A DNA stretch of 21,547 nucleotides from a virus. A program made the position numbers and the translations under genes. A model generated the notes under the pieces. The model was not told the origin of the DNA. It saw only the letters and a list, made by a program, of their open reading frames with translations, and searched no databases. Below, piece after piece: positions 800 through 5,234 of this stretch. Each line of letters starts with the position of its first letter. Position 1 is the stretch's first letter. Location: IMG/VR virus record IMGVR_UViG_3300008114_000172, positions 1 through 21,547 of that record. One strand, given 5' to 3'.

Positions 800-2500
800 T
801 TATGTTCTTGCTAATAGGTTTAATAAGTCCATATTATATGTGTCGCCCACTTGTGGTTTATTTCCACTTCCCATAGAACCTGATGTATTATTTGTTACTG
901 GTGCATTGAATAGTGAACCAATGTCGGCTGCTGATTCCATTCTTTGACCTTCAGAAATTTGTGATGATTTGGATGCAATATCTGAACCTAAACTTGGTGC
1001 TGATTGTGTTGGTGTAGGCGCAGTTGAACCGCCACCTAAAAGTGATGAACCCGAACCTGTTGTGTTTTCAGCTGCACCACCAGCCGATATTTTACCACTC
1101 AAAGCTTGAGTAGCTTTATCCATAGAACCTGAAAGTAATTTATCCCAACCGCCTTCTGGTCCTTGATTAAATTTATTTTGTGCAGTAGCTAATTGGTTTT
1201 TAACTGGATTAACAACATTCTTTTCATAATCTTCAGCACGGCCTAAACTATAATCACCTTTTGCATTAAGTTTTTTAATGTTTTGTAAATTACTTTCGGT
1301 GATTGCATTTAGATTACCTAATATGTTAGCTTGTTCTTTTCTATTTTTAGGTAAATCTTTAACAAGAGAAGTTGCCTTCTCCATATTTTTATTTACTTCT
1401 TCAACAACTTTATCTTTGGTTGGACCTAATTGTTTATCCACACCAGCAATAAAGTCTGTGGCCTTTTGCATTTCTTTTTGAACTTTTTCAGCTGTTCTTT
1501 GTGCTTTGAATTCACCAGCTGAATTTTCTTTTGCAGAACTCTTTGAATCTTTTTTGAATGGATAATATGGACCAAAACTCACATCTTTATTAATATATGG
1601 AATAGTAAATGAAACTCTTGGTATACCAACATTATTAGCAATCCAATCTTTCATTGAGTAATAGGTTTCTTTGATATTATCAATAATTGGTTCAACAGCA
1701 TCACCAACATCTTTTATTAATTTGCGTAATGAATCTTCACCAAAAAGCCCAAAGGTAACGAAATCAAGCATTTTACCTAAACCTGTTATAAAGGCTTCAG
1801 ATAAAGAACCTGTTTCTTTCCATTTTTCAAAACCAGCTGTGATGCCTTTCCATAAAGAGGCTAATATTGCACCGATAGCTAAAGTTTTACCTATGGTACC
1901 AATTAACATTTTAGGACTAAATGCACCAGATATGCCGCCAAGTAATCCTTCTTTTATAGAATCAACAATACCACCAAACATGCCGCCTGTTTTCGGTTTA
2001 CCATCTGGTGGGCTTTCTTCACCGCCAGCTTTAACGGCTGTTGGAGAACCAGGAGTTTGTGATTTGAGTTTTTGTGCTTCTAATTGAGATTCTAAAGTGT
2101 CTTGTGATTTGAAAAAATCGCCTTGTTTGGATAAATCTTGTTGTTCTTCGGCTTTTCTTTCAATTCTCGCCAATTCAACAATGTTTTGGCGAAGAATATT
2201 CATATCTTTGGCTATACCAGGAAGAGCCAAAGAATTTCTTGCAATTGTTTCTATGAAATTAGAATCAACACCTTCTTTTGTTGGTGATTTTTCTTTTCTA
2301 TACTTTGTGATACCCAACCTGCCACGAATCATGGCCGAAAAAATATCATCACCACCAAAAACACTTTTAACAAGGTTTTCTTTGGAGAACTTTTTACCTA
2401 TATCTTTTTTGGTATCTTTGAAGATTTCTTTGGCAGAAGCACCAAGGCCTTTACCTTCTTCAATATCAGATAAGTATCTACTAGCAAAAGTTGATGCCAT
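800..2500 (-). CDS. Tape-measure-like tail protein (gp29-like candidate)
   Basis: 566 residues, close to the size of T4 gp29 (about 590), the tape measure that sets tail length inside the tube. In order: a charged N-terminus, an LPGIAKDMN segment near residue 93 shared with the next gene, a Gln/Lys/Glu-rich stretch, a Pro/Gly linker, a hydrophobic Gly/Ala/Ile segment around residues 180-225, the block ETGSLSEAF...DFVTFGLFGE shared with its paralog, a long Lys/Glu/Gln helical region suited to coiled coil (about 330-460), and a Gly/Ser/Thr-rich low-complexity tail. The start lies 2 bp after the stop of the gene 26 extension ORF. A chaperone directly upstream of a tape measure is the classical order in tailed phages, which supports the assignment. 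There is no strong ribosome site before ATG 2500, only an A-rich stretch, so translation may be coupled to the upstream frame. The family call is inferred from position, length and composition. Confidence 0.6.
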   Translation of the reverse strand: MASTFASRYLSDIEEGKGLGASAKEIFKDTKKDIGKKFSKENLVKSVFGGDDIFSAMIRGRLGITKYRKEKSPTKEGVDSNFIETIARNSLALPGIAKDMNILRQNIVELARIERKAEEQQDLSKQGDFFKSQDTLESQLEAQKLKSQTPGSPTAVKAGGEESPPDGKPKTGGMFGGIVDSIKEGLLGGISGAFSPKMLIGTIGKTLAIGAILASLWKGITAGFEKWKETGSLSEAFITGLGKMLDFVTFGLFGEDSLRKLIKDVGDAVEPIIDNIKETYYSMKDWIANNVGIPRVSFTIPYINKDVSFGPYYPFKKDSKSSAKENSAGEFKAQRTAEKVQKEMQKATDFIAGVDKQLGPTKDKVVEEVNKNMEKATSLVKDLPKNRKEQANILGNLNAITESNLQNIKKLNAKGDYSLGRAEDYEKNVVNPVKNQLATAQNKFNQGPEGGWDKLLSGSMDKATQALSGKISAGGAAENTTGSGSSLLGGGSTAPTPTQSAPSLGSDIASKSSQISEGQRMESAADIGSLFNAPVTNNTSGSMGSGNKPQVGDTYNMDLLNLLART

Positions 2501-2502
2501 TT

Positions 2503-2646
2503 TTATCTATTTTTTCTCTGTTGTCGTTGTAATTCTAATCTTTCTTTTTCTTCTTCAAGGTGCCTAATTAATAAGCTAACATAGATATTTCTTTCCCAAG
2601 GAATCATTTGTTCAAGCTCAGATAAACTATACTTGTGATGTTGCAT
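2503..2646 (-). CDS. Small 47-codon ORF after gene 26; likely the C-terminal part of a frameshifted gp26 fusion
   Basis: Between the gene 26 stop and the next gene, an ORF from ATG 2646 to TAA 2503 encodes 47 residues: MQHHKYSLSELEQM, then an IPWERNIY core, then a very Glu/Arg/Lys/Gln-rich helical tail. Independent initiation looks weak, because the bases before ATG 2646 (ACCAACTTTGCTTTA) contain no Shine-Dalgarno sequence. The same frame is open upstream through 19 more protein-like codons (beginning RLIFRYDTLGNYY) back to a slippery heptamer in gene 26. A Leu/Glu plus aromatic-Trp core is reminiscent of the T domain of tail-assembly chaperones, though that resemblance is only qualitative. 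It sits where T4 carries gene 51 but is far shorter than T4 gp51. That it is coding is likely; that it is made only as a separate protein is less likely. Confidence 0.6.
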   Translation of the reverse strand: MQHHKYSLSELEQMIPWERNIYVSLLIRHLEEEKERLELQRQQRKNR

Positions 2647-3428
2647 TAAAGCAAAGTTGGTCTGATAGTAGTTCCCTAGTGTATCATAACGAAAAATTAA
2701 ACGAAAAAACTTTGTAGGCCTTTTATTTGGATATCCTCTTCATATTCACATTTTGGACATTTGAAATGGACATCTTTTTTAATTTCAGGCAAGGTGTCAA
2801 AGAACACTTTAATCTTTTCTAAATCTTTTTGTTGAAGGTTATCAACAAACTCAACCAACTCATCTTTTGAAGAATCTTTAGCATAATATATTTGGTCTTT
2901 GTCGTAAATATAATCAATACAGTCAACCAATACTGAAGACATAATGTCTGATTCAGTTTTATCTTCATATCTTTGAATCATATCAAAAGATGGATATTTG
3001 AGAACAACACCTAAATTATCTGTCAGTTGAATTTTATTTGTGTGGTTAGGATTCTTTGTAGGTTGAATTTCAAGTAAATTAACTTTGAAATCAACAACAC
3101 CGGTACAAGCATCACTTTCACCTTTGTCATTTAGAACCACATTATTACATTTGTATTTCAAATCTACAATTTCTTCTACTGACCTAGCTCTTAAATTCAT
3201 AAACAAGAATTCAAGGTCAAAAGTTGGTAATGAATCAACATCAATTTCATCAAGCACACAATTCTTTAATACTTGACGAATGACATTAACTGTTTCTTTA
3301 GGGTCACTAGATTCTGACGCCATTAGAAATAGTTTTTGTTCTTTGACCAAAAATGGTCTGAAACGGATTGTTTTGCCCGTTGAAATTAATTTAACTTCAT
3401 GTATAGGCACATCTAGTTTAGGTAACAT
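2503..3428 (-). CDS. Predicted gp26 -1 frameshift fusion (308 aa), G/G-T-like
   Basis: Reading gene 26 from ATG 3428 through codon 242 (TTC, 2705-2703), slipping back one base on T TTT TTC and continuing at CGT (first base 2703) gives 66 further residues ending at TAA 2503, for a 308-residue fusion. The -1 frame is closed by TGA codons just upstream (about 14 codons before the slip), and between there and ATG 2646 it has no ATG, GTG or TTG. The 19 protein-like codons before ATG 2646 can therefore be translated only by frameshifting. In lambda-like phages a G/G-T pair made this way chaperones the tape measure before tube assembly, and here tape-measure-like genes follow directly. No convincing downstream stimulatory hairpin is visible, only a weak TAG-GGAA-CTA stem. 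The efficiency, and whether the event occurs, cannot be read from sequence. Confidence 0.6.
2697..3428 (-). CDS. 26: Baseplate hub assembly protein gp26 (T4_baseplate family)
   Basis: 243 residues; T4 gp26 is 208. The N-terminus (MLPKLDVPIHEVKLISTGK, then RFRPFLVKEQKLFLMA) is the signature of the T4 gp26 family found across T4-like phages: P.Y/H-E-L followed by STGK, a basic RPF-VKEEK segment and a Leu/Met helix. C94, C108, C224 and C227, the last two as CPKC, could form a zinc site. The protein ends GLQSFFV, and the FF codons are the slippery site. In T4 gp26 is needed for hub assembly. Here its place before tape-measure-like genes suggests it acts as the short form of a tail-assembly chaperone pair (inference). 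A good ribosome site, GCGAGG, precedes ATG 3428. It lies 19 bp after the gp54-like gene. Confidence 0.88.
   Translation of the reverse strand: MLPKLDVPIHEVKLISTGKTIRFRPFLVKEQKLFLMASESSDPKETVNVIRQVLKNCVLDEIDVDSLPTFDLEFLFMNLRARSVEEIVDLKYKCNNVVLNDKGESDACTGVVDFKVNLLEIQPTKNPNHTNKIQLTDNLGVVLKYPSFDMIQRYEDKTESDIMSSVLVDCIDYIYDKDQIYYAKDSSKDELVEFVDNLQQKDLEKIKVFFDTLPEIKKDVHFKCPKCEYEEDIQIKGLQSFFV
2703..2709 (-). promoter_or_regulatory. Slippery heptamer T TTT TTC for -1 ribosomal frameshifting
   Basis: In gene 26 phase the message reads CAA AGT TTT TTC GTT TAA. The heptamer T TTT TTC fits the X XXY YYZ rule exactly in the zero frame and lies two codons before the stop. After slippage both tRNAs re-pair with TTT codons. 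A second copy of TTTTTCGTT follows 14 bases downstream, just past the stop, making a short direct repeat. An internal Shine-Dalgarno-like stimulator is not obvious upstream. Confidence 0.6.
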
Positions 3429-3447: not shown

Positions 3448-4212
3448 TTAAAATGGTAATCTTGTAGCTGCTTTTCCAAAAGGCAATAATCTTGCACCAG
3501 CTGCTCCAAACAATGCGGTTGCAGCTGAAGCTAGGTTGTAAGTTCCTTCATATTGCACTCTTAAATATTGATATGCAAATTGAACTTGAAGTCTGTGGAA
3601 TCCATCTTCACCCCAATTCAAAGCTTGTGGTGCTACACCAATAGGATAAGCGTCAATCAATTCAACTGCATAAATCTGTTTAATAAATTCATCATATTGT
3701 ATAATTTTAATATTGGTCATATATCGTGAAGATTGACCTTTTGGAAACCGAAGATTGTTTGTGTCAGAAGGATGAATAGCTTCTAACCAACGGTCAAATA
3801 ACTTTCTTTCATAGAAATCATTGGTACATAAAAATGTTAGTGTTGTATCCGCATATTGTGATTGGTAAGGAACCTTAAATATTGGACCATATATTTTTAC
3901 ATCAGCTGTTGCTAAAGTTCTTCCAGGCAATTCAGCACTTTCACATTGTAAAGCCAAATATCTTGAAACGGATGGATTAGATGATTTTGATTGTTCATCT
4001 TTGGCGCCTTGACGACCAAAAGCAGAACCAATAGCATCACTCACATCATTAAATACTGAATTGGGAAAATTTAATATTTTCTCAATCACAGAATTACCAA
4101 CAAAGTTTCCAATGTATGTTGGTATAGGGAGAACAACTTCAAACCTTGATGGTTTAGCTAAGCCGTCTTTTGCTCTTACATTAGATAAGAATAAATTAGG
4201 TGAAAATGACAT
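3448..4212 (-). CDS. 54: Baseplate tail-tube initiator gp54-like protein (gp19 tail-tube fold)
   Basis: 254 residues. The core about residues 80-220 has the pattern of T4 gp19/gp54 tube proteins: YLALQCESAELPGRTL, then IYGPIFKVPYQ, a TLTFLC strand, an F.ERKLFDRWLEAI helix, an IKIIQYD strand and a YPIGVAPQALNWGED..HRLQVQFAYQYL C-terminal strand pair. The gp19-type tail-tube family is known for the L.C..A.LPG motif and the late W..Y/F.R region. A 254-residue length with an N-terminal extension (residues 1-75) and a Gly/Ala-rich C-terminal tail fits gp54, which starts the tube on the baseplate, better than the shorter major tube protein gp19. Start ATG 4212 overlaps the previous stop as TAATG and has an AGAGGA ribosome site. 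The gp54 versus gp19 choice rests on length and baseplate context. Confidence 0.72.
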   Translation of the reverse strand: MSFSPNLFLSNVRAKDGLAKPSRFEVVLPIPTYIGNFVGNSVIEKILNFPNSVFNDVSDAIGSAFGRQGAKDEQSKSSNPSVSRYLALQCESAELPGRTLATADVKIYGPIFKVPYQSQYADTTLTFLCTNDFYERKLFDRWLEAIHPSDTNNLRFPKGQSSRYMTNIKIIQYDEFIKQIYAVELIDAYPIGVAPQALNWGEDGFHRLQVQFAYQYLRVQYEGTYNLASAATALFGAAGARLLPFGKAATRLPF

Positions 4213-4802: not shown

Positions 4803-5234
4803 TCAAATGCCAAGGTCTTTTTCAGTTAAAATCTTAAACTCCCATCCATGTTCTTTACAGAACAGGTCGGCAGCTCTCCATTTCTCCTGATTAATTGCAT
4901 AAGTCATGGCTTCTTGGATAAATGTCTTTGTTTTGCGTTTTTGAGTTGGTTTCTTGGTTTGTTTCTCTGGTTTGACTTCAATGACCAGAGTGTTTTCTTT
5001 ATTGTTAGTTTGCCTAACACGAACAATGAAATCTGGATAGTAACGGTGCATCTTTTGGTCAATAGGTGATTTGTAACGAATAGACAACTCCTCTGACGCC
5101 CACCAAAGAACATTGGGGTCAATATCTAAATGTTTCATTACTCTTAATTCCCAATTGGAACGATAGACGATATTAGCTGCATCGCCTTTGTATTTTGTTG
5201 GGTTTTTTGGTCTAAACCATCCTTTATATGACAT
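4803..5234 (-). CDS. 4: Head completion protein gp4 (gp50/65), PD-(D/E)XK nuclease fold
   Basis: 143 residues, near T4 gp4 (150). It matches the family closely along its length: a KG.F.PKNP.KYKGD start, the YRS.WE helix, a WWASEEL..RYKSP segment, HRYYPDF, VIEVKP, and the C-terminal AD.FCKEHGWEFKILTE. The probable nuclease residues are E29 (in SNWE), D68 (in YPDF) and E86-x-K88 (in IEVKP), the PD-(D/E)XK layout. In T4 gp4 is needed to finish DNA-filled heads so that tails can join. It is the first gene of the leftward group, divergent from gene 48. The start is fixed by the conserved N-terminus although no Shine-Dalgarno sequence precedes ATG 5234; a CATAGATAGTATT box sits immediately upstream. 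Confidence 0.88.
   Translation of the reverse strand: MSYKGWFRPKNPTKYKGDAANIVYRSNWELRVMKHLDIDPNVLWWASEELSIRYKSPIDQKMHRYYPDFIVRVRQTNNKENTLVIEVKPEKQTKKPTQKRKTKTFIQEAMTYAINQEKWRAADLFCKEHGWEFKILTEKDLGI

Follow-up and report, generated by a model that had tools for sequence, protein, structure and literature searches.

The locus analysed here raises the question of how a phage translates codons that lie beyond the end of a gene, in a different frame and with no evident start of their own. The window (the whole stretch of 21,547 nucleotides, positions 1 to 21,547 of the IMG/VR virus record IMGVR_UViG_3300008114_000172) contains a T4-like gene 26 that is followed by 66 open codons in the -1 frame. 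A first-pass annotation had proposed that ribosomes slip back by one nucleotide at the end of gene 26, and that gp26 and its extension form a tail assembly chaperone pair resembling gpG and gpG-T of phage lambda. This proposal is supported by a conserved slippery heptamer, a conserved -1 frame and purifying selection. Judged from the sequence, the -1 frameshift at the end of gene 26 is very likely real, and gp26 together with the gp26-gp51 fusion arising from this slip is, with high probability, the phage's tail assembly chaperone pair, equivalent to lambda gpG/gpG-T.

Gene 26 lies on the minus strand (2697..3428) and encodes the putative short chaperone form (gp26, TAC-N-like), a protein of 243 aa matching the Pfam family T4_baseplate (PF12322, 2.5e-61) and the PHROG family 'baseplate hub' (PHROG 150, 2.4e-68). 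Its ATG is preceded by GAGG. On the minus strand the 3' end of the gene reads CAA AGT (2711-2709) TTT (2708-2706) TTC (2705-2703) GTT (2702-2700) TAA (2699-2697). A single codon (GTT) thus separates the in-frame heptamer T TTT TTC (2703..2709) from the stop. From CGT (2703) the -1 frame stays open for 66 codons until a stop at 2505-2503, leaving a gap of 2 bp to the next gene, which starts with ATG 2500. The extension including its stop therefore occupies 2503..2703 on the minus strand. Both the heptamer and the open frame had been described correctly before. The -1 frame is also closed upstream, as had been claimed, yet not about 14 codons before the slip: 13 open codons are counted back from the gene 26 stop, and the earlier figure is thus the distance from the stop. 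The first ATG, GTG or TTG of the -1 frame past the slip is ATG 2646 (2644..2646, minus strand), codon 20 of the extension, and no Shine-Dalgarno-like sequence is found ahead of it (ACTATCAGACCAACTTTGCTTTA-ATG). On this point, too, reading the sequence bore out the first-pass annotation.

The conservation of this arrangement was surveyed in 408 related loci (IMG/VR relatives, relatives of five more distant gp26 proteins, and isolate phages); they are related by descent, and counts among them are not numbers of independent events. To locate the extension, the three frames following gene 26 were each scanned with a profile. A gp51-like segment was found in 399 of the 408 loci: 398 times in the -1 frame, once in frame 0 and never in +1. 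After removal of duplicates, 305 of the 306 distinct loci have an in-frame T TTT TTN close to the stop of gene 26, with TTC (230), TTT (72) or TTG (3) as last codon. Where the second Phe has been changed to Leu, the codon is TTG and the run of T is preserved. The residue ahead of the site can be Asp, Ser, Asn, Ala, Gly or Thr, but T is invariably the last letter of its codon. Among the 80 nearest IMG/VR loci (74-100% gp26 identity) the terminal Phe-Phe is encoded by TTT TTC after AGT or AAT, except in two disrupted loci. The isolate phages S-PM2, Mosig, S13, Ah1, pf16 and phiM9 display the same arrangement as the window.

Elsewhere in gene 26, an in-frame T TTT TTN occurs at 9 of 15,406 codons, which corresponds to an expectation of about 0.6% for any ten codons. 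Among 71 divergent representatives, all drawn from the loci that have the heptamer (305 of 306), it is found at the gene end in 71/71, compared to 4/75 of the other Phe-Phe pairs in the same genes. Independent codon choice at gene-wide usage would give the heptamer in about 41% per representative. The second codon is TTC in 46 of the 71, while TTC accounts for only 28% of the Phe codons in these genes.

Two candidate exceptions were rejected. Locus L009 does not represent a loss of the heptamer, but contains a premature TGA in the middle of the gene (around 310) with the heptamer intact downstream; over the region, its contig otherwise shares 94% identity with the window. Locus L020 was discarded as an in-frame fusion, being a contig with a 152-bp deletion that removes the slip site and otherwise identical to the window where aligned. 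The deletion (around 4598) places the extension in frame behind residues 1-199 of gp26 and is either an assembly artefact or a real deletion variant.

The extension itself (gp51-like, TAC-C-like) behaves as coding sequence. It is matched by PHROG families 634 (gp51, 'baseplate hub assembly catalyst'; 4.8e-26) and 150 (gp26; 3.8e-07), the latter through the family's C-terminal end. From the latter match, it appears that some members of the gp26 family already carry the extension. Searching Pfam with the extension gave sub-threshold matches only, and a fold search against the PDB gave no match. The 19 codons between the slip and the first start had been said to look like protein, and this could be substantiated: in 46 distinct segments of the window clade, dN is 0.096 and dS 1.10 (NG86; dN/dS about 0.09), and the variation falls mainly on third codon positions when read in the -1 frame. 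A start codon is lacking before codon 19 in 61 of 76 window-clade loci and in 71 of 79 pelagiphage-like loci. AlphaFold predicts three helices for the extension (mean pLDDT 76), including one at residues 2-23 and a long one at residues 35-65. A start at codon 20 would hence delete most of the first predicted helix. The alignment of relatives that had been suggested as a check was thus carried out, and the heptamer, the -1 frame and the purifying selection on the 19 codons before the ATG are all retained.

In the proposed mechanism, most ribosomes would terminate at the gene 26 stop and yield the short protein gp26. A minority would slip by -1 at T TTT TTC, where both tRNAs paired with TTT TTC would re-pair with TTT TTT. 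The slipped ribosomes would then read 66 further codons, generating the gp26-gp51 fusion. Coating of the tape measure protein would fall to the short form, and recruitment of tail tube or baseplate subunits to the long form. We infer the occurrence of slippage, its rate and the chaperone roles from features and a conservation that were directly observed. The role of a G/G-T pair is probably the best reading of the slip, the gene order and a weak fold match to an HK97 chaperone. In a Foldseek search with the gp26 model, the PDB match of highest probability (0.80) was the HK97 tail assembly chaperone 2OB9, a weak match that is not significant (E 0.89); a sequence search of the PDB with gp26 gave no match. 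In T4, gp26 and gp51 are listed as hub assembly chaperones, and gp51, which assembly requires, is not part of the particle (PMC3004832).

The neighboring genes are arranged in the order tail tube, gp26, extension and probable tape measure, the last of which was called from its position. Upstream of gene 26 lies a tail tube or tube initiator gene (gp54-like, minus strand, 3448..4212; PHROG 45 tail tube, 7e-32). The ORF downstream of the extension (minus strand, 800..2500) encodes a 566-aa protein without a match in the Pfam or PHROG libraries. From its position, size and a hydrophobic segment, it is probably the tape measure protein. Its ATG 2500 has no Shine-Dalgarno sequence and lies 2 nt past the extension stop (2505-2498 for the whole junction). 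In 56 of the 71 representatives the next ORF starts between -30 and +10 nt from the extension stop, and this proximity suggests coupled translation. Elsewhere, the window contains a gene for a head-closure protein (4803-5234; gp4-like, PHROG 218), which matches a TnsA-like nuclease in Pfam (4.3e-24).

Candidate stimulators of the slippage were found on both sides of the site. In the window, the Shine-Dalgarno-like AAAGG (minus strand, 2719..2723) is located 9 nt upstream of the heptamer. Of 305 loci, 277 have an SD-like tetramer, nearly all between -11 and -15 and mostly at -12 to -15 from the heptamer; among the remaining windows of these genes the share is 14.5%. The motif is encoded by a conserved [K/E/R]-G dipeptide, so that protein conservation contributes to its enrichment. 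In S-PM2-like loci (mean z -1.22, n=37) and also in the Mosig-like ones (mean z -1.21, n=31), the RNA directly 3' of the site is more stable than versions shuffled among synonymous codons. For the window clade, a downstream RNA structure received no support (mean z +0.42, 5 representatives). Clade-specific hairpins lie directly 3' of the slip site in loci L113 and L204. The hairpin of S-PM2 is long and AT-rich (TGTTCTATAATAAT paired with ATTATTATAGAACA), and that of the Mosig-like loci is formed by GCCTCT/AGAGGC.

Could the extension be a separate small gene (gp51), with a start of its own or reached by re-initiation after the gene 26 stop? In GenBank a separate gp51 is indeed annotated for many cyanophages, and S-PM2, Mosig, phiM9 and others have such an entry; the ORF annotated in the Ackermannviridae phages Kamild and Gloob overlaps with the stop of gene 26. 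Moreover, many cyanophages (82 of the 110 S-PM2-like loci) have a start codon no more than ten codons from the slip, and a separate gp51 could also be made there. In the window, however, the first start comes only at codon 20, without a Shine-Dalgarno sequence, downstream of conserved codons and inside the first predicted helix. A separate gene would not require the retained heptamer or the -1 relation, and the equivalent T4 protein is the full gp26-plus-extension fusion. This reading is therefore considered improbable. Several public genomes leave the gp51-like extension without annotation, as do the records of S-WAM1, S13, Ah1 and VmeM-32 (L082 3008-3197, L088 2709-2871, L089 2721-2886 and L087 2712-2924), and in Mosig gp51 is truncated by the assigned start.

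The same fusion could be encoded by a subset of mRNAs if the RNA polymerase, rather than the ribosome, slipped on the run of six T, and at least six T are indeed present in every heptamer. Six T are, however, short for efficient polymerase slippage in E. coli. The codon phase of the site is moreover invariably X XXY YYZ, and its distance from the accompanying SD-like element is close to that used in the ribosomal frameshifting of dnaX, leaving polymerase slippage slightly less probable still than a separate gene. A sequencing or assembly error that splits one continuous gene might be suspected, the window being a metagenome contig. The recurrence of the arrangement in hundreds of contigs and in the isolates S-PM2, Mosig, S13, Ah1, pf16 and phiM9 makes such an error extremely improbable, and these relatives already refute it. 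Ribosomal -1 frameshifting is thus the preferred reading.

T4 itself has solved the problem differently. A profile of the fused protein aligns with T4 gp26 only up to the FF (3.9e-27) and with T4 gp51 through the junction (4.9e-14; both E-values for a three-sequence search), from which it follows that T4 possesses a short gene and a long gene. The statement that gene 51 normally follows gene 26 does not hold for T4, where the two are neighbors but divergently transcribed. The window has no T4-style separate full-length gene for the long form; what extends gene 26 there is just the stretch of 66 codons in the -1 frame. Within the Straboviridae, the phages S13, Ah1, VmeM-32 and Ci1 retain the frameshift arrangement. 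In the Ackermannviridae PhiSH19, Kamild, Gloob and FKP14 and in the Vibrio phages D503 and VPALA, the gene ends with NTT TTC, one codon and the stop (gene 26 stops of such loci in Ackermannviridae and related Vibrio phages: L091 2741, L409 2247, L410 2244, L413 2241, L092 2672, L411 2178). These phages keep the extension in the -1 frame, in most cases with the motif MPWH and sometimes with an ATG at the junction. The Vibrio phage Bakedbeans retains T TTT TTC. Loss of the heptamer with a separate small ORF, which the first-pass annotation had named as evidence against the slip, was thus seen in two places only: the Ackermannviridae and some Vibrio phages (NTT TTC), and T4 (separate genes).

A broader scenario can tentatively be drawn, to which we assign somewhat less than even chances. 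T4-like phages outside the T4 group may share a dnaX-type site, in which an SD-like stimulator precedes the slip by about 10 nt and is joined, in some clades, by a hairpin. Translation of the tape measure may be coupled to the frameshifted ribosomes, given that the start of its gene lies at the extension stop and, in the window, lacks a Shine-Dalgarno sequence. T4 would have replaced the frameshift by gene duplication, and the Ackermannviridae would operate on the degenerate NTT TTC.

Vladimirov, Gautam & Davidson (Virology 2022;566:9-15) reportedly dealt with the tail assembly chaperones of T4-like phages, TAC-N and TAC-NC. Judging from the title, the citing text and the T4 homology, the genes in question are probably 26 and 51. 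The tail-chaperone frameshift had earlier been described as widely conserved, with T4 as an exception (Atkins et al. 2016, PMC5009743). According to passages in later papers, Vladimirov et al. 2022 is the source for some T4-like phages having, in place of the frameshift, one short gene and one long, fused gene (PRFect, PMC10885494), and is credited with the poly-T slippery signals of TAC-N genes in T4-like phages (the phage Adele paper, PMC12846349). The earlier remark that T4-like phages are not the standard example thus has to be revised, frameshifting in T4-like phages having already been reported according to these citing papers. The mechanism is already known; what is added here is its wider conservation, the candidate stimulators and the lineage exceptions. 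The survey supports the view that tail-chaperone frameshifting is used by most T4-like phages, a group that had long counted as its exception (PMC5009743), and that T4 is the derived case. A phage with separable short and long forms would allow a direct test of their ratio and role.

Among the closest known systems is the T4-like gp26/gp51 (Vladimirov et al. 2022, as described by the citing papers), which shares the short/long chaperone pair and the poly-T slippery signal. In T4 the long form originates from a second gene (51), whereas in the window, an uncultivated relative, it would arise by a -1 shift from gene 26. Phage lambda slips at G GGA AAG instead of T TTT TTC, and gp26 of the window has 243 aa; the likeness considered here is one of arrangement. 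In lambda, a -1 slip at the end of a gene that lies upstream of the tape measure gene leads to a minor, C-terminally extended form (Levin 1993; Xu 2004), and the slip in the window would do the same. The TAC frameshift of Vandenendeviridae and Andersonviridae (PMC12846349) likewise concerns myoviruses with a poly-T slip and a -1 extension ahead of the tape measure gene, but in other families and with the motif GTTTTT rather than TTTTTTN. Finally, the slippery heptamer of E. coli dnaX is likewise preceded, at about 10 nt, by an SD-like sequence, and its downstream hairpin has counterparts in some of the clades studied here. The dnaX site differs in belonging to another gene and in having another heptamer, and the window clade has no clear hairpin.
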